DNA of 34,986 nucleotides from positions 1 to 34,986 of the forward strand of contig JAEEZV010000022.1 of NCBI GenBank assembly GCA_016291995.1. The letters run 5' to 3'. Positions 10,552 to 25,383 of the stretch are shown in pieces. This stretch comes from Caryophanales bacterium (GTDB lineage: Bacteria; Bacillota_I; Bacilli_A; RF39; UBA660). Under the pieces are notes generated by a model, which was not told where the DNA came from, did not search any database, and was given only the letters and a program-made list of their open reading frames with translations. Within the stretch, counting starts at the first letter, position 1; every line of letters begins with the position of its first letter. A program made the position numbers and the translations under genes.

Positions 10552-11808
10552 TTAATAATTTACATTAGAGCCCTTAGTAAAATTGCCGGATCCTTTATTA
10601 GTTAAAAAAGTACCATTAACTATTTCATATAAACCGATAGCCTGAGACTCCTTATCATAACAAGGAACATAACTACGTATAAGATTATTATTACTGTATA
10701 GACTTAAACTATATATTCTACCAGTATAATAATAATTAGGCCCACCAGTACCATTATAGGCAAATAACATTAAATATCTTGATGATCCTCCCGGATAAAC
10801 ATAAGATGATGTATAATTAGTACCATTTATATTTAGCGTCGTTCCAGACGAAGTAGTCGTTGCTATATAGTGAACTTTTTGATTGTAAAGTGCCGTAGAG
10901 TTTTTAACTGCTCCTGCATTGGTCCAAACGCCAGGTTTACCAGTTGAATCAAAATAATATTGAATACTTTTAGTATCGCCAACTCCAGCAAATGTAGGTT
11001 GTGAACCAGCACCAGATGGAGTATATACATCTGCTTCTACTTTAAAGTTTGATGACGGTATAACATCAGTTATAATATATTGTGCACCACTTGATTGAAT
11101 ATACTCTACTTGCTGATATTCAGAAGGTAAATTGCCAGCTGTTTGTTTTGCATATGCATTGATATTACCACTAAATGGTACATTATTATATGTGTTATCG
11201 GAATTATATCCATCTAACCAAAGATATATATAAAATACTCTTTCTGTCTTTGTAACACTAAAACCAGTATGAACTGGTGTATTAGCTCCAATCATACTAC
11301 TTGTAACATAGCCAACACTAACAGGATCTCCTGTCGTATCATCTTCATATATTGCATATTTTAAAGCTGTCCCATTTGTTACCCATGAACCACTATGACT
11401 AGTACAATCGCTACTAGTCTTATAATCATTTAATGTTTCTAATGTAGTAGGATTCTCACAATGAGCAGCAACAGTTGTACCAAAAACGGCACCGGTTCCA
11501 CTATTGATTTGCATCTTTAGTGTACCTTCTCCACTAATTGTACAATTATTATTAATCTTCATTGATACTTTTCCACCAAGTGTCCCAGGTCTTAAAGGAC
11601 CAGATGATGGAAATAATGTTCCTGTGATATCTTGTGTATTATCATCATTATTAATATTATAATCGATTAAAAAACAATCCGTAACTCCACTATAATTACC
11701 ATCGGATACAACTACTTGTGAATTAAACCACGCAAATGTTCCTCCAGCAACAGCTACACCGATAAAAATTACTAACATTGATAAAAGAAGTGCCTTTTTC
11801 TTATCCAT
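10552..11808 (-). CDS. Secreted protein with TasA-like N-terminus and C-terminal LamG/concanavalin-A-like domain
   Basis: I place the start at ATG 11808 (418 residues) because the Shine-Dalgarno AGAGGT lies nine bases upstream at 11818-11823; a longer frame to 11883 lacks one. Residues 4-24 are hydrophobic and end in GGTFAWFNS, a SipW-dependent-type signal as in TasA/camelysin proteins. A beta-rich region with several Cys residues follows (about 40-220). From LPSEYQQVEYIQSSGAQYI (227-245) to the C-terminus lies a LamG/concanavalin-A-like module. It shows the typical ending with a VPCYDKE segment and TFLTNKGSGNFTKG. Such modules are common in gut Firmicutes surface and phage proteins and may bind glycans. 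No membrane anchor or sorting signal is visible at the C-terminus. Its own promoter lies at 11833-11861. Confidence 0.78.
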   Translation of the reverse strand: MDKKKALLLSMLVIFIGVAVAGGTFAWFNSQVVVSDGNYSGVTDCFLIDYNINNDDNTQDITGTLFPSSGPLRPGTLGGKVSMKINNNCTISGEGTLKMQINSGTGAVFGTTVAAHCENPTTLETLNDYKTSSDCTSHSGSWVTNGTALKYAIYEDDTTGDPVSVGYVTSSMIGANTPVHTGFSVTKTERVFYIYLWLDGYNSDNTYNNVPFSGNINAYAKQTAGNLPSEYQQVEYIQSSGAQYIITDVIPSSNFKVEADVYTPSGAGSQPTFAGVGDTKSIQYYFDSTGKPGVWTNAGAVKNSTALYNQKVHYIATTTSSGTTLNINGTNYTSSYVYPGGSSRYLMLFAYNGTGGPNYYYTGRIYSLSLYSNNNLIRSYVPCYDKESQAIGLYEIVNGTFLTNKGSGNFTKGSNVNY

Positions 11809-11832
11809 GTAATCACTACCTCTACTATATAA

Positions 11833-11861
11833 AGAATACCATATATAGGGTATATTTTCAA
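11833..11861 (-). promoter_or_regulatory. Promoter of the LamG-like gene
   Basis: TTGAAA (11861-11856) and TATTCT (11838-11833) are separated by 17 bases, with TGG directly before the -10 as an extended -10 element. It is divergent from the promoter at 11900-11928. Confidence 0.65.
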
Positions 11862-11899
11862 TAAGTTTTATTTTTTTTGACATTTTTTTAAAATTTATC

Positions 11900-15115: not shown

Positions 15116-16198
15116 ATGAAAAAAATAGATAAAGTATTACTCTATTCCGTAATTATATTATCTTTATTTGGTCTATTAATGATTTATTCATCTTCATCTA
15201 TATGGGCAGAATATAAGTTTAATGATCCATATAAATATTTAAAAAGCCAAGGTATATTTCTTTTTTTAGGATATATCATCATGTTTTTTATCTCCAAAAT
15301 AGATTTTAAAATATATAAAAAATATAGTAATATCATCCTTATGATATGTCTTGGATTGCTTATCCTTGTTTTAATTCCTGGTATTGGTACAATTAGAAAT
15401 GGAAGTAGAAGTTGGTTTGGTATAGGGCCATTAGGTATTCAACCCAGTGAAGCCGCCAAAATAGGATTAATTATCTTTACTTCAAAATATTTAAGTAATA
15501 ATAAAATTAAAGATATTAAGCATTCTATATTGCCAATATTGATAATTCTTTTTCTAACATTTGCTCTTATCATGTTACAACCAGATTTAGGTACCGGTGT
15601 AATTATTGTCATGTCCGTTATCTCCCTCTTATTTATCTCGGGTGTAAATATGAGTTTCTTTATTAAAATGGGTATATTGGGACTAATCGGTATCATCGTT
15701 TTAATTATTATTGCTCCGTATCGTATTGCAAGAATTACTTCCTTTATAAATCCTTGGTCAGATCCATTAGGCAGTGGTTTTCAAATAATCCAAAGTTTGT
15801 ATGCCATAGGACCTGGTGGACTACTTGGTATGGGTATTGGCAATTCTATTCAAAAACACTTCTATTTACCAGAACCACAAACAGATTTTATCTTTTCCAT
15901 TATCAGTGAAGAATTAGGATTCGCTGGAATACTAATCGTATCCCTTCTCTTTATAACTATTATCTACCGAGGAATTAAAATATCTTTATCTATTGAAGAT
16001 AAATTTGCTAAATATTTATCCTTTGGCATAACCTTTAGTATTACCTTTCAATCTATCCTCAATTTAATGGTCGTAATAGGACTAATTCCTGTTACTGGTG
16101 TCACACTACCATTTCTATCTTATGGTGGCTCTAGCTTAATAATTTCCCTGTTAGAAATAGGAATTCTATTAAACATCTCTAAAAAAGAAGATCTATAA
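15116..16198 (+). CDS. ftsW: FtsW/RodA/SpoVE family lipid II glycan polymerase
   Basis: SEDS proteins polymerise lipid II into glycan strands with a partner class B PBP. The 360-residue protein has about ten membrane segments. The family motifs are all present: NGSRSWFGIGPLGIQPSEAAK (within 95-115), LQPDLGTG (154-161), LPEPQTDFIFSIISEELGF (251-269, with the conserved Asp257) and PVTGVTLPFLSYGGSS near the C-terminus. It resembles FtsW/SpoVE more than RodA, and its probable partner is the penicillin-binding protein at 12082. The Shine-Dalgarno is weak. A TATAAT at 15095-15100 would give a start only about nine bases before the ATG, so the message may be nearly leaderless. The stop overlaps the convergent gene by six bases inside a hairpin. 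Confidence 0.93.
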   Translation: MKKIDKVLLYSVIILSLFGLLMIYSSSSIWAEYKFNDPYKYLKSQGIFLFLGYIIMFFISKIDFKIYKKYSNIILMICLGLLILVLIPGIGTIRNGSRSWFGIGPLGIQPSEAAKIGLIIFTSKYLSNNKIKDIKHSILPILIILFLTFALIMLQPDLGTGVIIVMSVISLLFISGVNMSFFIKMGILGLIGIIVLIIIAPYRIARITSFINPWSDPLGSGFQIIQSLYAIGPGGLLGMGIGNSIQKHFYLPEPQTDFIFSIISEELGFAGILIVSLLFITIIYRGIKISLSIEDKFAKYLSFGITFSITFQSILNLMVVIGLIPVTGVTLPFLSYGGSSLIISLLEIGILLNISKKEDL

Positions 16199-16213
16199 CA
16201 GATCTTCTTCTTC
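16181..16213. terminator. Shared hairpin holding both stop codons of two convergent genes
   Basis: GAAGATCT (16187-16194) pairs with AGATCTTC (16200-16207). The ftsW stop (16196-16198) and the stop of the minus-strand gene (16193-16195) lie in or next to the five-base loop. An A-run at 16181-16186 gives a T-run for the minus strand; the plus-strand tract is T-rich but interrupted. Confidence 0.7.
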
Positions 16214-17584
16214 ATTTTCTTCTTCCACTACTTTCTTTTTTCTACTTCTTGGTTTAGTTGCTTTTGCTTCTTTAACTTCTTTTAATTCTCTACCCAATTT
16301 TCTTTTAGATGCTGCTAAAGCAATTATTAGAATTAATAAAGCAAAAATTATACCAAGAGCTATTAACAAATATTTATAGTATGTATTCATATTATTTTTA
16401 TATAAATCTAACACTTCTAGATTATATCTTTGTACTGTCTTTTCCTTAGCATCATATTGATATAAACTAGTCTTACCAGTCTCAACATTTTTGGCATAGA
16501 ATAAGTAAAATTGATTACCCGTAATTTCTTCATTATCAAGAGCATATGTATTCTTTAAAATATCTAACTTTACTTCTTGATAACTAGGGATACTCTCTTC
16601 TCCATAGATGAAATTTGTCTTTTTATAACCTTTAGGCATTTCATCATCCAAAAGTTGTAATGTTACATTACCAAAAGTATACTCTTTATATAATGTATAT
16701 TTATTATCTTTATAAATATAATAATCTACACTACCCTCATCATCTTTTAGACCAACTAAAGTATAATCTAGTTTTTCATTGTAGTATCCATCTACTTTTT
16801 CTTCGCCAATTTCTACTTCTTTTTCTTCATAATATTCACTTATTTCAGGTAACTCATCTTTCTTTCTAACAACCGTATATGATTCATTATCTACCTGAAC
16901 TTCAATTGGTTTTAATTCCTCAACCGTTGCTTTAATCACATATGTTCTTTTACTACCATTAGCAGCTGTTACAACAACATTTAATGTATTAGTACCTGTA
17001 ACCAAAGCTACTTCACCAGTTCCTGTTACTCTAGCATCAGAATCAGCTAATTGAGCATTAATTTTAACTTTATTTGTTTCAGCAGGAAGAGTTAAAGTAT
17101 ATTCTAAAACTTCTTTATCAAAACTCTCATTTAATTTGTAACCTTCAACTGTCAAACTACTTAAATAATTATTTGAAGATTTTGGTTTAACAGGTGTTGT
17201 TGTCGTATTTCCACCAGTTGATTTAGCTCTAACTGTTACGGTAACTGTCTTACTTCCTTTTATAGCATTTTCATTATAATCGCTTACATCTGTAGCTGTT
17301 ACCGTAATTTTAGCAGTTCCTGCCTTATTTGCTTTTAATGATATACTTTCAGTCTTACTGTCTACCCAAACAGAACCACTTGCTATACTTAAAACTGAAC
17401 TATCAGATGTTGTAACAGTAAATTGTCCAGCAGCCTCGCTTGCTGTAATATTTAAAGAAATACTATTACCTACCGTTACAGTACTACTAGTAACAGAAAT
17501 ACTAAATCCAGCTGCAAAAACATTTGCTATAAATAACATAAAACTAAAAATTGTTACTGTAAATAACTTAATAATCTTTTTCAT
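16193..17584 (-). CDS. Membrane-anchored surface protein with Ig-like and cadherin-like beta-sandwich domains
   Basis: The 463-residue product has a cleavable signal peptide (about 1-25, ending FAAG). A bacterial Ig-like domain follows (about 27-119, including NKAGTAKITVTATD), then a Thr/Pro linker (121-138). A cadherin-like beta-sandwich domain spans 140-225, starting LSSLTVEGYKLNESF and ending with NGSKRTYVIKAT. Next comes an acidic Tyr-rich region (230-400), one membrane segment (404-425) and a charged cytoplasmic tail rich in Lys, Arg and Glu. The same cadherin-like module occurs in the glucosaminidase 10 bases upstream, so the two are probably an operon. It contains no cohesin or dockerin that I can see. 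It may be a membrane partner or receptor for the hydrolase; that is inference. Confidence 0.75.
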   Translation of the reverse strand: MKKIIKLFTVTIFSFMLFIANVFAAGFSISVTSSTVTVGNSISLNITASEAAGQFTVTTSDSSVLSIASGSVWVDSKTESISLKANKAGTAKITVTATDVSDYNENAIKGSKTVTVTVRAKSTGGNTTTTPVKPKSSNNYLSSLTVEGYKLNESFDKEVLEYTLTLPAETNKVKINAQLADSDARVTGTGEVALVTGTNTLNVVVTAANGSKRTYVIKATVEELKPIEVQVDNESYTVVRKKDELPEISEYYEEKEVEIGEEKVDGYYNEKLDYTLVGLKDDEGSVDYYIYKDNKYTLYKEYTFGNVTLQLLDDEMPKGYKKTNFIYGEESIPSYQEVKLDILKNTYALDNEEITGNQFYLFYAKNVETGKTSLYQYDAKEKTVQRYNLEVLDLYKNNMNTYYKYLLIALGIIFALLILIIALAASKRKLGRELKEVKEAKATKPRSRKKKVVEEENEEEDLL

Positions 17585-17594
17585 GTCCTTCTCC

Positions 17595-19571
17595 TTACTG
17601 TACTATAAGTTTAGTACCCATTATATGATTCTTTATCGCTATATAATCAGCTGATGATATATCACCACTTTTATTTGCGTCAGCACTTTGTACGCTAACT
17701 CCGCTCAACTTTTTAGTACCCATTATATGATTCTTTATCGCTATATAATCAACAGAACTAATTAATCCGTCACCATTTACATCACCATAAATGATAAGTG
17801 TATATGTTTTTTCTTCTCTACTTGTTTTAATATTGATTACATCACCTGTTGCAATAATACCATTATTCTTAAGTTCCCCATCTTTATTCTTATATGTTAC
17901 TGTTGCCTTAGGTTCCTTATCCGTAATACTTTTAATAATTGCTGCGGCATCAGTACCGGTTTTATATCCATATACATATGTTCCGTCATTCTTTATTCCT
18001 AAGACTCTTAATATTTCCGCAATATCAAGTGCTTCTTCAACAGCATTCCTTTTAATAGTTAATACATATGTCCTTTTATCTCCATTTTCGGCAGTTACTA
18101 CAATACTTATTTCCTCTTGATCATTTTCAAGTGAAATACTTCCTGTACCACTAACTGTTGATCTATTACTTACTTTACTAGCTGCAATTTCTACTGTTTT
18201 AGTACTTGCATCTAAATTAAGATCATATTTTGTCTTAGAACTAGCCTTTTGGAATAAATAACTACCATTTACTGATAAACTACTCAAAAAGTTATTTGGG
18301 TTACCAATATTTGGTAAAGATACTTTCTCAGGCATATTTTTATATACTGGTATTGAAAATACAAAATCACTATTTAACATATTAACATTGCTATATGCCC
18401 TATATGTTTTAACTGATTCATTAGCTGGAGCCTCAATATTCTGCATATATTGGTGATTGACCAGAGAGTTTCCTACCATATCCCATTTTTGCAAGTATAA
18501 TGTATCTTGTCCCACAGATACATAATCATTAGCTAGGAAACTTGCTCCCCCAACAATAGCTTTATAATGAGTATTCCAGCCTTGTTCCTTCGCGTGCTTT
18601 AATCCGTTGGCAATCGTTTCAGCACTACCATTTCCAGAAGCTTTAATATTATAAAAGTTGTAATATCCTTCGTATCCAGCCACTGTACCAGATACAATTG
18701 TACTACCCTGAGCTCCCACTTCTTGTATTACTCTAGATATTAAAACATATGGACTAATATTATATTCCGTCGCTGCGTCTAAGAAAGCATCGACATATGT
18801 TTTTTTATTATCAGAATCAGCATATCCTTGCATAAAAGTGCCATTTAACATCTTTGTAACGCCTTCAGCAGTATGATAATTACTATTATAAGATAATGCT
18901 TCATACATAAATACTTGTCTTTCATTTAAAAAGTTACGTGGATCCATATAATAAGCAATTGTTGCTTTATTCGCTGCAAACCAATATGTTCCTCCACCTC
19001 TAAAATCATTTGAAAACGTATCAGTTAAATAATTATATGACCAAGAAGCAGTTGATTTATATCCATCACGACTTCTATTGGTATCTTCAATTAAACTCCA
19101 TCCTTGAGAATATCCATCATATTCTTTCGTTACCATACTATTAAAATCTTGTTTTATGTCATATACTTTGAATGACCAAGTCGGATATTTAACATGTAAT
19201 GTAACTAAATATGGAATATAACTATCCGGAAATCCTAAAGCTTTTAAATAATCACTATATTCTTCATAATCAGCCATATTTATTTCAGGTATTTCTTCTA
19301 TTTTAGTAAATTCACTACATATATAACCTACTGTCCCATTATTACTAGCTTTATACCATAATGTACATCCATTACCGGTACCAGCATTATCAGATATTAA
19401 TGATAATTGCTGTCCACTATTAAACATTGTAATAACAGAGCTTCCTGTCGTAGGTGCACTTCTAAAATTAACATAATCTTCTGTAACAACAATTATTTTT
19501 TCGGCAGATACAGAAAATGAAAAAATAACAAATGAAAAAACAAAGAAAACAAAATATGATATTTTTCTCAT
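17595..19571 (-). CDS. Secreted SH3-type N-acetylglucosaminidase (LytG-like) with C-terminal dockerin
   Basis: The 658-residue exported enzyme should cut the glycan strands of peptidoglycan. Its modules in order begin with a signal peptide (1-23) and a bacterial SH3 domain (24-92). A glucosaminidase domain (about 180-380) has the probable catalytic Glu284 in SRVIQEVGAQGS, followed by YYNFYNIKASGNGSAE. Then come a cadherin-like beta-sandwich (428-508), a short alpha/beta module (about 515-595) and a type I dockerin-like pair of calcium loops (596-656). The first loop is DVNGDGLISSVD (597-608), the second DANKSGDISSAD (631-642); both keep the Asp/Asn calcium ligands. A dockerin on a wall hydrolase suggests docking to the cohesin-like proteins encoded at 21860-25260. 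It has its own extended -10 promoter and is followed by the Ig/cadherin-like gene. Confidence 0.85.
   Translation of the reverse strand: MRKISYFVFFVFSFVIFSFSVSAEKIIVVTEDYVNFRSAPTTGSSVITMFNSGQQLSLISDNAGTGNGCTLWYKASNNGTVGYICSEFTKIEEIPEINMADYEEYSDYLKALGFPDSYIPYLVTLHVKYPTWSFKVYDIKQDFNSMVTKEYDGYSQGWSLIEDTNRSRDGYKSTASWSYNYLTDTFSNDFRGGGTYWFAANKATIAYYMDPRNFLNERQVFMYEALSYNSNYHTAEGVTKMLNGTFMQGYADSDNKKTYVDAFLDAATEYNISPYVLISRVIQEVGAQGSTIVSGTVAGYEGYYNFYNIKASGNGSAETIANGLKHAKEQGWNTHYKAIVGGASFLANDYVSVGQDTLYLQKWDMVGNSLVNHQYMQNIEAPANESVKTYRAYSNVNMLNSDFVFSIPVYKNMPEKVSLPNIGNPNNFLSSLSVNGSYLFQKASSKTKYDLNLDASTKTVEIAASKVSNRSTVSGTGSISLENDQEEISIVVTAENGDKRTYVLTIKRNAVEEALDIAEILRVLGIKNDGTYVYGYKTGTDAAAIIKSITDKEPKATVTYKNKDGELKNNGIIATGDVINIKTSREEKTYTLIIYGDVNGDGLISSVDYIAIKNHIMGTKKLSGVSVQSADANKSGDISSADYIAIKNHIMGTKLIVQ
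17611..17751. repeat. Two identical 39-base repeats encoding the dockerin helices
   Basis: Bases 17611-17649 and 17713-17751 are identical (39 of 39), spaced by 102 bases. They encode the helix of each dockerin half, ending DYIAIKNHIMGTK. Identity at third codon positions points to recent duplication or gene conversion. Confidence 0.9.
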
Positions 19572-21836: not shown

Positions 21837-21861
21837 AAAAAAAGAGCAATTAATGCTCTTT
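21837..21861 (-). terminator. Terminator of the cohesin-like operon
   Basis: AAAGAGCA (21841-21848) pairs with TGCTCTTT (21854-21861) around ATTAA; a short T-run follows on the minus strand. It overlaps the stop codon of the gene at 21860-23056. Confidence 0.8.
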
Positions 21862-23056
21862 ATTCAAAACTTTGCATATTCTTTTTATAATAGTACATTG
21901 CAACTCCAAGTGAAGCTATTAAAACTATCGCCATAATAAATGCACTCGTTCCACCAGTACTAGGATTAACTGGTGGCTTTTGACTAGGCGTAGCAGATGA
22001 ACCAGCTTTCTTAACAGTAATCGTATAAGAAACTTGTTCGACTAAATTCTCTTTATGATTTATAGTTATTAATACTTGTCCTTCACCTGATAATACTTTA
22101 GGTGGAACAAAGAATGAAGAAAATTCATAGTTTTCACTATCTTTAAGTGTTGCATCAACTGTATATGAAGAAACATCATCAAGTGTTACTTCATATTCAT
22201 ATTTAGAACTAGATAAAGTAACATTCTTACCACCAACAGTCAAAGTTGCAAGTTCTCCACCTTCTACTTCTTGTGGAACAGGTCTGGCAACATTAAGTGT
22301 ATATATTACTTGGTTATCTCCTTCACCAACATATATCTTAACTTGCATATTTGTTTGACCACTAGGTGGATTAAATTCAATACTACTTGCATTAAGAGTT
22401 GCATCCGTATGACCATTCTTAATAACAATTGTATCATTAGCATTTTTACTAGTAGCAGAAATACCAAATGTAGTCGTAGTTTCACTATCTAGAAGAACAG
22501 CATATCCTGTATCATTATCTAATGATGAGAAAGGCCTACCCAAAGTACCATTAGTAATAGATAAATTCTTAAGACCTTTTTCCGTTTCTACCGGTTCTGA
22601 TCCAGAACCAACTGTAACTGATACTGTTGCATCGCTAACAGAATAATTATCATCCAAATCATAGAATTTAACATCCGTAAGTTTGATAGTTTTACTTCCC
22701 TCACTTATTGAATCAGAAAGTTTAAATTTTATTGATCCAATTTGAAATGATCCATTGGCTGGATTTCCCATATATGGAGCAATTTTATTACCATTAATTG
22801 TCTTACCTTCCCAATTGTCATCAGCAAAAGTAATATTTTGAGAATTAATTTCTATTCCATCAGGTAAATCAAACGTACCAGTTACACCATATATATCAGT
22901 ATCGGTCGTTCCGCTTAAAGAACACGTAATTATATCTCCTGCTTTAGCTTCTGATGGTGAACAACTCATAGATAAAGTACCAGATAATGCATTTACCGTA
23001 ATTGGGAAAAACAACATCAATGAAATTGTCAACAATAACTTTAGTTTATTTCTCAT
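21860..23056 (-). CDS. Anchored surface protein with N-terminal cohesin-like domain and cadherin-like repeats
   Basis: The 398-residue protein begins with a signal peptide (1-23). Residues 27-150 look like a cohesin domain, with a Cys pair (Cys32, Cys45), the strand GVTGTFDLPDG, the strand IGSIKFKLSDS and the late strand IKLTDVKFYDLDD. Two cadherin-like beta-sandwich domains follow (about 160-258 and 267-350). The C-terminus has a Pro/Ser linker, NPSTG (364-368), one hydrophobic segment (371-390) and KKN. This is either a sortase-type sorting signal with a non-canonical motif or a simple membrane anchor. The start overlaps the stop of the upstream adaptor gene by four bases (ATGA). It could receive the dockerins encoded at 17595 and 23053; direct binding is inference. 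Confidence 0.8.
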   Translation of the reverse strand: MRNKLKLLLTISLMLFFPITVNALSGTLSMSCSPSEAKAGDIITCSLSGTTDTDIYGVTGTFDLPDGIEINSQNITFADDNWEGKTINGNKIAPYMGNPANGSFQIGSIKFKLSDSISEGSKTIKLTDVKFYDLDDNYSVSDATVSVTVGSGSEPVETEKGLKNLSITNGTLGRPFSSLDNDTGYAVLLDSETTTTFGISATSKNANDTIVIKNGHTDATLNASSIEFNPPSGQTNMQVKIYVGEGDNQVIYTLNVARPVPQEVEGGELATLTVGGKNVTLSSSKYEYEVTLDDVSSYTVDATLKDSENYEFSSFFVPPKVLSGEGQVLITINHKENLVEQVSYTITVKKAGSSATPSQKPPVNPSTGGTSAFIMAIVLIASLGVAMYYYKKNMQSFE

Positions 23057-24402
23057 TTTTGCACCTCCAAAGTACTTATCTTTCCAAGTATGAATTGATG
23101 TAATTTAATAACATCACTTAAATCGACATTTCCGTTACCGTTGACTTCACCGGCCGTTAAATAAGCACCAGTAAGATGACTTATATCGATATTGTGTTGA
23201 TGTAATTTAATAACATCACTTAGGTCTACTGTACCACTACCATTTACATCTCCTAGTACAGATAACGTATATTCCAAAGTCTCATCACTAAATGCTATTT
23301 TTAAAACATCGCCTGTCCTAATTTTATCAGAATCGGTAACACTTTGACCTTTTGAATTAGTAATACTAATAGTACCTGATGTATCAAAATAATTTTTAAG
23401 ATTTGCATAACTTGTATTAGCTTTCAATCTTTCAATTGTCATCGTTGTATCATTAACTTTTAAACTCTCATCAATAACAAGTTTTTTACGTTTAAAACTA
23501 TATCTATCAATTTCATTATTATTATACATAATTAATAATTTACAATCATCATTTATTATTGTGTTAGCATCAGTAATTGCCGTACCATTCTTATTTATAA
23601 CCTTAATAGTAACTGTACTACTTGTAATATTTTGACTGATCTCACTATAATACGTATTATCAACATCATTAAGATATATTACTTTATCCATAATTTGATA
23701 ATCGGAATGGAATCTTATAATGTTTATTTCCTTAATTACTGTTCCACTACGCTTAAGTATTAATTTACCATCGCTAATACTATAAGCTATATTAGAATCA
23801 TTCGAACCAAGATTACTTATAATTACAGCATCTTCATCTGATCTAGTATAGATATAATTAGCATCTGCATTATATTCATAAACATCCGTACTAAATTCAT
23901 GCTCTGCCTCAACAGTAACCGTTGCTTCGACATCAGCCAATTCAATCATATTATATTCGTCATCGCATAGTTCAATATTAGTTAATTTAATTTTATAAGT
24001 CTTACCTGCTTCGGCATCATCTGCTATTTTTAGTTTTATTTGACCAACTGTTGTATTTGATGTTACACCAGTAGTTTTAACAATTGCAAATCCTTTAGCT
24101 GAACTAGCATACGTTTCAAAATCACCTTTAGCAGTAAATGACGTATATGTCAACTTTGAATCCAAAGTATAGTTTGCATTTACTGATAAAACTTTAACAT
24201 TTGATATCTTCAAATTAACATCGCATGTAATTATTGCTCCAGGCTCTGCTTCACTAGGTGAACAAGTAAGCGCTACACTACTTGTTGTATCTACACTATA
24301 TGTCCCTTTATTTATCCAAAATACAGACATCAGTATAAATAAACTAGCCACCGAAGCCAAACAAATACTAATTCCTAAATTCTTTCTTATAAAACTTCCC
24401 AT
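23053..24402 (-). CDS. Adaptor-like surface protein with N-terminal cohesin-like domain and C-terminal dockerin
   Basis: The 449-residue protein has an N-terminal hydrophobic segment (about 11-31) that may be a signal or an anchor. A cohesin-like domain lies at 43-165, with the Cys pair Cys47/Cys60 and the strand VGQIKLKIADDAEAG. A beta-rich middle (170-310) follows, then a small module (about 310-384) like the one before the dockerin of the glucosaminidase. A dockerin fills 383-443. Its first calcium loop DVNGSGTVDLSD (385-396) is good; in the second, EVNGNGNVDLSD (419-430), the first Asp is Glu. Carrying both a receptor and a ligand module, it has the layout of an adaptor scaffoldin. It is the middle gene of a three-gene operon. 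Confidence 0.8.
   Translation of the reverse strand: MGSFIRKNLGISICLASVASLFILMSVFWINKGTYSVDTTSSVALTCSPSEAEPGAIITCDVNLKISNVKVLSVNANYTLDSKLTYTSFTAKGDFETYASSAKGFAIVKTTGVTSNTTVGQIKLKIADDAEAGKTYKIKLTNIELCDDEYNMIELADVEATVTVEAEHEFSTDVYEYNADANYIYTRSDEDAVIISNLGSNDSNIAYSISDGKLILKRSGTVIKEINIIRFHSDYQIMDKVIYLNDVDNTYYSEISQNITSSTVTIKVINKNGTAITDANTIINDDCKLLIMYNNNEIDRYSFKRKKLVIDESLKVNDTTMTIERLKANTSYANLKNYFDTSGTISITNSKGQSVTDSDKIRTGDVLKIAFSDETLEYTLSVLGDVNGSGTVDLSDVIKLHQHNIDISHLTGAYLTAGEVNGNGNVDLSDVIKLHQFILGKISTLEVQK
23095..23222. repeat. Two 26-base repeats encoding the dockerin helices of the adaptor
   Basis: Bases 23095-23120 and 23197-23222 are identical and encode SDVIKLHQ in each dockerin half. The spacing is 102 bases, the same as in the dockerin of the glucosaminidase, although the sequences differ. 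Confidence 0.85.
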
Positions 24403-24417
24403 ATTCCCTCCATAATG

Positions 24418-25260
24418 TTATTTTTTCTTCATAATCATCCTTAAAACATTAAATATAACTAAGAACACAATAATAGATATTAGAATTTTTTTCATATCAA
24501 TTACATTCTTTTTTTCTACCGTAACTGCCTCTTTTTTAATATTGATAGTATACGTTACCTCATAATCATCTTTACTTACAACAATACTGATAACACTACC
24601 ATCTTTTAAGTTTTTATTACCTTCTATTTTATATGTCGATAAAGCATTACTTAAAATAGGAGTAATAGCAAGTTCATCTTCATTATCTATAGTAAGATCA
24701 TAATTATATACATCTTTATCAAATGCTAAATAATAATTATCGATAATTATATCTTCTAAATATATATCTTCAGTAGCAGCAGGAGTTTCTACCGCAGGCT
24801 GCTCCTTCGTATTACTGCTCACAGTACCATTATTTGATACGCTAGTCTCTTTCATATTAACCGTAACAGATACTGAATCAATCGCTGTATTATCATCAGC
24901 AGTATAAAAAGCAACATCTTTTAGTTCTATTAATCCTGGATTACTACCACTTTTTTTAAATTTAGCAGTTCCAATTTTAAAAGTATTCTTAATTTCATCT
25001 GCCGTATATATTGATACCTTACCATTAGAGCCATATCCATTCCATATTGCATTATGTACGAATGAGACAAACAACAAGCCATCATTTGTAACTATATTAG
25101 TCTCGACACCAGAAATTGCAGAATCAGTACTACCACTGATTTCACAAGTAAATTCTTCCCCATCAAAAGCCTCTTTTGGGCAACTAATAGTAATGCTATC
25201 AGCATACACATGTAATGGGCATAACAATAAAATAAATAATGTCAATATTTTTTTCTTCAT
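24418..25260 (-). CDS. Membrane-anchored cohesin-like protein
   Basis: The 280-residue protein has a signal peptide (1-20). A cohesin-like domain follows (about 22-136) with a Cys pair (Cys27, Cys39), GVETNIVTNDGLLF, IGTAKFKKSG and IELKDVAFYTADDN. Then come a Thr/Glu-rich linker (138-165), a cadherin-like domain (166-243) and a C-terminal membrane segment (about 256-276) with a short basic tail (MKKK). It is the first gene of the operon, with the promoter at 25316-25344 and a Shine-Dalgarno AAGGGG. The layout is that of an anchoring scaffoldin with one cohesin. What it binds is unknown; the dockerins encoded in this window are the obvious candidates. Confidence 0.8.
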   Translation of the reverse strand: MKKKILTLFILLLCPLHVYADSITISCPKEAFDGEEFTCEISGSTDSAISGVETNIVTNDGLLFVSFVHNAIWNGYGSNGKVSIYTADEIKNTFKIGTAKFKKSGSNPGLIELKDVAFYTADDNTAIDSVSVTVNMKETSVSNNGTVSSNTKEQPAVETPAATEDIYLEDIIIDNYYLAFDKDVYNYDLTIDNEDELAITPILSNALSTYKIEGNKNLKDGSVISIVVSKDDYEVTYTINIKKEAVTVEKKNVIDMKKILISIIVFLVIFNVLRMIMKKK

Positions 25261-25315
25261 ATATACCCCTTACTTTTATTCACAGTGCTTATAGCACACT
25301 CCTACTCTCTATAAA

Positions 25316-25344
25316 AGTGTACCATATATTAAAACTTTTTACAA
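25316..25344 (-). promoter_or_regulatory. Promoter of the cohesin-like operon
   Basis: TTGTAA (25344-25339) and TACACT (25321-25316) are separated by 17 bases, with TGG before the -10. The leader contains a small GTGCT/AGCAC hairpin. Confidence 0.6.
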
Positions 25345-25352
25345 GTATAAAA

Positions 25353-25383
25353 ACAAAAAAAATACACTTGAAGTGTATTTTAA
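25353..25383 (-). terminator. Terminator of lon
   Basis: AATACAC (25361-25367) pairs with GTGTATT (25373-25379) around TTGAA, extended by A/T pairs. A T-run follows on the minus strand. The right arm reaches the lon stop codon. Confidence 0.85.

Follow-up and report, generated by a model that had tools for sequence, protein, structure and literature searches.

A cohesin–dockerin protein, probably a surface adaptor, encoded between two anchored-cohesin genes in a small-genome gut bacterium

The window analyzed here, a stretch of 34,986 nucleotides from a Caryophanales bacterium of the RF39 lineage (contig JAEEZV010000022.1, assembly GCA_016291995.1), contains a closed unit of three genes, the middle one of which encodes a 449-residue protein with both a cohesin-fold domain and a dockerin (a Coh-Doc adaptor; Table 1). 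The reading frame of the adaptor begins with ATG, is preceded by GGAGG, and overlaps the following gene by 4 bases, while a gap of 15 bases separates it from the 280-residue protein gene. The products of both flanking genes are cohesin proteins with anchors, and a sortase gene is present in the same genome. Ribosome-binding sites were found in the unit, a terminator lies directly behind it, and the three cohesin genes are probably expressed from a shared transcript. The cohesins of the two neighbors share 34% identity with each other, and 19% and 25% with that of the adaptor.

Table 1. Features of the window, with positions counted from its first nucleotide.
Feature	Position	Strand	Description and basis
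Coh-Doc adaptor gene	23053..24402	(-)	449 aa; ORF, Pfam dockerin, AlphaFold2 model, fold match
N-terminal hydrophobic helix	24313..24393	(-)	residues 4-30; AlphaFold2 model, orthologue alignment; signal anchor or long signal peptide
K-G-T-Y-S motif after helix	24295..24309	(-)	residues 32-36; pattern comparison across protein classes
Divergent cohesin	23908..24276	(-)	residues 43-165; C47/C60 pair; profile, AlphaFold2, fold matches
Stalk, three similar beta-rich repeats	23257..23883	(-)	residues 174-382; model, alignment with LRR-dockerin proteins
Type I dockerin	23083..23256	(-)	residues 383-440; Pfam, phmmer, repeat alignment
280-aa anchor, first gene	24418..25260	(-)	signal peptide, cohesin ~23-137, cadherin-like domain, C-terminal membrane helix; candidate docking anchor
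398-aa anchor, third gene	21860..23056	(-)	signal peptide, cohesin 28-150, cadherin-like domain, NPSTG + membrane helix + short basic tail (sortase-type signal); candidate docking anchor
NPSTG motif of 398-aa protein	21953..21967	(-)	sequence; NPxTG-like motifs at the same place in genus orthologues
Intrinsic terminator	21841..21861	(-)	directly after third gene
Gap to upstream lon gene	25261..25379	(-)	begins with AT-rich hairpin + T-run, probable lon terminator, by eye
Glucosaminidase-dockerin, the window's other dockerin protein	17595..19571	(-)	SH3, SagB-like glucosaminidase, cadherin-like, dockerin
Membrane-anchored neighbor of the glucosaminidase	16193..17584	(-)	cohesin-related N-domain, cadherin-like, C-terminal membrane helix

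The preliminary description had placed a cohesin-like domain and a dockerin in this one chain, and both were confirmed. From the N- to the C-terminus, the protein consists of the hydrophobic helix, a divergent cohesin, a stalk of three repeats, and the dockerin. In a Pfam sequence search, the adaptor did not reach the gathering cutoff of the cohesin family PF00963 (17.6-18.7 bits versus 24.1), so that the cohesin could not be called by Pfam alone, and a structural test was run. The AlphaFold2 model has pLDDT values of at least 90 across most of residues 41-160, and shows a confident beta-sandwich at residues 41-164. The top fold match was a Clostridium perfringens cohesin (2jh2_B; Z 15.8, with 125 residues superposed at an rmsd of 2.1 Å), cohesins filled all of the best 28 rows of the fold-match list, and the best Foldseek value was 2.3e-8. 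By its predicted fold, the region of residues ~38-167 is a divergent cohesin. The limits proposed earlier, 43-165, were returned by a cohesin profile whose seed includes the 449-residue protein itself. All of the orthologues found in the genus retain this domain. Its cysteines C47 and C60 form a pair that occurs in most of the relatives compared, making a disulfide possible. At the start of the cohesin, this pair is invariant in eight aligned cohesins, and is absent at this place from the two anchors of the genus genome G061.

The dockerin passed the Dockerin_1 (PF00404) cutoff (25.1 bits versus 22.9) at residues 383-439, and its phmmer matches were dockerin chains in the PDB. Its two repeats are nearly identical, with VDLSDVIKLHQ in each, and 16 of 22 positions equal. 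Loop 1 reads D-V-N-G-S-G, with serine at position 5, and loop 2 reads E-V-N-G-N-G, with glutamate at the first position; these two residues may reduce the calcium affinity of the dockerin, and calcium binding by loop 2 would be non-canonical, yet plausible. Leave-one-out dockerin profiles assigned the correct class to 35 of 36 glucosaminidase-type and 30 of 37 other dockerins. With these, the adaptor dockerin scored 73.2 bits as "other" (adhesin-type) versus 53.2 bits as glucosaminidase-type, suggesting that its partner would be found among the adhesin-type anchors rather than in the anchor of the glucosaminidase.

The stalk, predicted alone (five sequences, pTM 0.65), gave no clear match in the PDB, with a best VIA Z of 4.9, and no clear fold match in Foldseek, where the best value of 1.3e-3 was to S-layer and Ig-like proteins. 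The same stalk region precedes the dockerin in LRR-dockerin proteins of the same family (L037, L038, L040, and L041), which also belong to the non-glucosaminidase dockerin class, but carry an LRR domain where the adaptor has its cohesin. Given this common region, the C-terminal halves of the adaptor and of the LRR proteins may be related through fusion or domain exchange.

The N-terminus was previously described as a hydrophobic segment without an obvious cleavage site. The segment is real: residues 4-30 form a helix, and a hydrophobic stretch of ~22 residues lacking an A-x-A motif recurs in the genus orthologues. The second part of that statement must be qualified, however, as a conserved K-G-T-[FY]-S that would fit the -3/-1 rule comes after the helix. 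The broader pattern K/N-x-[GSA]-T-[FYW]-[SAN] was found near the N-terminus of 7 of 11 Coh-Doc proteins. It did not occur in any protein of the other classes compared (36 glucosaminidase-dockerin, 37 other dockerin, and 92 anchor-type), and among these classes is restricted to Coh-Doc adaptors. It is possible that the helix tethers the adaptor in the membrane. The long hydrophobic stretch would favor an anchor, whereas the T-x-S within the motif would permit cleavage by signal peptidase. Elsewhere in the window, a 443-residue protein (10552-11883) combines a weak LamG-like domain with an N-terminus (GGTFAWF) that appears SipW-like by eye. The locus L041:292-7795 encodes nine tandem paralogous proteins of 238-247 residues with alike N-termini (GVIGVATLIVAIIGATFAYF), which appear camelysin/TasA-like by eye.

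The Coh-Doc adaptor was found in five of the seven genomes of the genus: G000 (the genome of the window), G061, G145, G148, and G149. G148 and G149 keep the order [COH-TM]-[COH-...-DOC]-[COH-NPxTG], as does one of the two loci of G145. The adaptor of G061, like that of the more distant G140, adjoins anchored proteins of the kind seen in the trio and has an LRR-dockerin gene beside it; no such gene is present in the G000 operon, and none was found in the G000 genome, which is 79% complete. In G147, a 94%-complete genome of the same genus, the two anchors are present, but the adaptor is missing from between them.

In a cohesin tree containing many weak forks, the adaptors of G000, G145 (two), G148, and G149 form one group (fork 85/64), and a 100/99 branch separates the adaptors of this lineage from 19 rows that include all of the anchors except the two of G061. 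The latter (G061_TM and G061_LP, a membrane and an NPxTG anchor) lie on long branches, apart from the other anchors. The Coh-Doc cohesins of G123, and the second one of G148, were placed among the anchor cohesins. Judging from this placement, Coh-Doc proteins probably have more than one origin, the adaptor lineage has a cohesin type of its own, and a difference in specificity between the two modules would not be a rule for all Coh-Doc proteins. Besides that of the window, Coh-Doc proteins are encoded at L049:7982-8914, L125:7368-8942, and L121:2063-2941; the cohesins of the L049 and L125 proteins group with the anchors, which suggests separate origins.

A dockerin match was obtained in 109 of the 145 genomes of the family, and the commonest carrier of the module is a peptidoglycan glucosaminidase. 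At a threshold of 1e-20, 90 of the 145 genomes match the glucosaminidase-dockerin protein of the window, in some cases along no more than a part of the protein. Among the fetched loci, the nearest neighbor of each of the 36 glucosaminidase-dockerin genes is a cadherin-like and/or cohesin gene, and 35 of these partners have a C-terminal membrane helix by rule, the remaining one (L099:1-1182) reaching the contig end. By the same rule, such a neighbor accompanies 23 of 37 other dockerin genes, a count biased by loci that were picked for their cohesin matches. Across the family, dockerin genes appear to adjoin, as a tendency, genes for membrane-anchored cohesin or cadherin-like proteins. The N-domain of the glucosaminidase's neighbor was recognized as a cohesin in eight relatives (profile versus PDB, best 4e-7). 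For the corresponding N-domain in the window, no direct cohesin match was obtained; profile comparison showed it to be homologous to the cohesin N-domains of the relatives (97.9%). The recurrence of this pair suggests that cohesin–dockerin binding may tether the SagB-like wall enzyme to its membrane-anchored neighbor.

Three dockerin proteins were found in the 79%-complete genome: the glucosaminidase, the Coh-Doc adaptor, and a 738-residue DOC-COH-cadherin-like protein. Dockerins on plant-polysaccharide enzymes mark a cellulosome, and there is no such enzyme among these three. The 738-residue protein (L036:5337-7553; G000 contig 49) contains a dockerin, a cohesin, a cadherin-like region, and a C-terminal membrane helix, with the order of dockerin and cohesin reversed. 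It has relatives in L140, L141, L142, and L144, and proteins of a similar build (dockerin, cadherin-like, membrane helix) are encoded in G061, G145, G147, and G149, with the cohesin called in G000 only.

Cohesin–dockerin pairs have mostly been studied as the glue of cellulosomes, and Coh-Doc adaptors are known from bacteria that digest plant fiber. Among the folds closest to residues 38-167 of the adaptor are the non-cellulosomal C. perfringens cohesins 2jh2, 2vo8, and 2w1n, together with 2xdh of Archaeoglobus. The 2vo8 and 2w1n modules of C. perfringens are parts of glycoside hydrolases, whereas the adaptor cohesin sits with a dockerin and has the C47/C60 pair. Adaptor scaffoldins are defined in passages of PMC4959524, PMC2930009, and PMC5301203, the last two of which describe ScaC of Ruminococcus flavefaciens as an adaptor scaffoldin serving a cellulosome. 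Like ScaC, the 449-residue protein joins a single cohesin, divergent and here predicted by fold, to a dockerin at the C-terminus, and occurs alongside other scaffoldins. It differs in its long hydrophobic N-terminus, in its three-repeat stalk, in the position of its gene between two anchored-cohesin genes, and in that the dockerin proteins found with it include no plant-polysaccharide enzyme. ScaH of R. flavefaciens also combines a single cohesin with a dockerin, which binds the cohesin of its own protein (PMC5301203), but it is cellulosomal.

The logic of an adaptor scaffoldin, put forward in the preliminary description, is supported by the architecture of the protein, by the operon in which its gene lies, by its occurrence in the genus, and by the split of its cohesin from nearly all of the anchors. 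The explanation that we favor, and consider on balance probable, is that the protein is a monovalent, ScaC-type surface adaptor operating outside a cellulosome, which docks on the neighboring anchors and recruits another dockerin protein. Its role would probably be to link other proteins to the bacterial membrane and wall. In this mechanism, the adaptor dockerin would bind the cohesin of one or both of the anchored neighbors made from the same transcript, the 280-residue membrane protein and the 398-residue protein with the sortase-type signal, and the differently specialized cohesin of the adaptor would be left to recruit a further dockerin protein. In the relatives, the LRR-dockerin proteins would be the natural candidates for this ligand. 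As none was found in the present genome, the candidates here are the 738-residue DOC-COH protein, the glucosaminidase, or a gene absent from the incomplete assembly. Several observations weigh against the favored explanation: the possibly lowered calcium affinity of the dockerin, the lack of an LRR-dockerin match in this genome, the missing adaptor of G147, the weak forks of the tree with its outlying G061 anchors, and the anchor-like cohesins of the G123 and second G148 Coh-Doc proteins.

Three other explanations were weighed against this one. The protein might be dockerin cargo only, docking on the anchors while its N-terminal cohesin-fold domain is structural or binds a ligand other than a dockerin. 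Cohesin-like folds are known outside dockerin binding, and the CLIPPER adhesin domain (9ifr) and pilin domains do appear in lower rows of the fold list; the three dockerins found in the genome would also leave few ligands. We nevertheless regard this as unlikely, given that cohesins fill the top of that list, and that the domain is retained in all of the genus orthologues found, its relatives being anchor domains that often adjoin dockerin genes. Head-to-tail self-assembly, also raised in the preliminary description, would have the dockerin bind the cohesin of another copy, forming surface chains or rings. A single chain holds both modules, separated by a stalk, the near-identity of the dockerin repeats would allow two binding modes, and ScaH offers a precedent, as its dockerin binds its own cohesin (PMC5301203). 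This variant gained no support here, and we judge it rather improbable. Two anchored-cohesin genes directly adjoin the adaptor gene, and the adaptor cohesins are a lineage apart from nearly all of the anchor cohesins that adjoin dockerin genes. An adaptor with two specificities fits the 100/99 branch better than a head-to-tail homopolymer, and a difference in specificity between adaptor and anchor cohesins would fit the same division. In comparisons of distance matrices, with too few taxa to decide, the dockerin gave no clear signal with the anchor cohesins, and the dockerin and cohesin of the adaptor itself showed no covariation, a weak point against self-assembly.

Finally, the helix might stay in the membrane while the dockerin grips the cohesin carried by the wall-anchored NPxTG neighbor, so that the protein would serve mainly as a link between membrane and wall. 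This is consistent with the recurring hydrophobic stretch that lacks A-x-A, with the sortase-type signal encoded by the next gene, and with the sortase of the genome. It is the least probable of the alternatives, and a quite doubtful one, as the K-G-T-[FY]-S motif would allow signal peptidase cleavage, the gene for the membrane-anchored cohesin is equally close, and the cohesin of the adaptor would be unnecessary for such a link.

The surface adaptor proposed above belongs to a wider setting: cohesins and dockerins turn up again in many genera of gut bacteria with small genomes, and the commonest dockerin carrier is an envelope enzyme. In one genus, a dedicated adaptor accompanies receptors anchored in the wall and the membrane, and no attached fiber-digesting enzyme was found. 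No description of cohesin–dockerin pairing in RF39-type bacteria was found in the literature searched by title and abstract, which covers few subscription journals. We tentatively suggest, as a possibility rather than an expectation, that small-genome gut Bacilli use cohesin and dockerin for their own envelope and not for plant fiber: throughout the family, a membrane-anchored cohesin would hold a peptidoglycan glucosaminidase. This genus would, in addition, have a tethered Coh-Doc adaptor that connects cohesins anchored in the membrane and the wall with other surface proteins. If the binding holds true, this would be an envelope use of the receptor-plug system, offering new small cohesin–dockerin pairs and a handle on the surface architecture of uncultured gut Bacilli.
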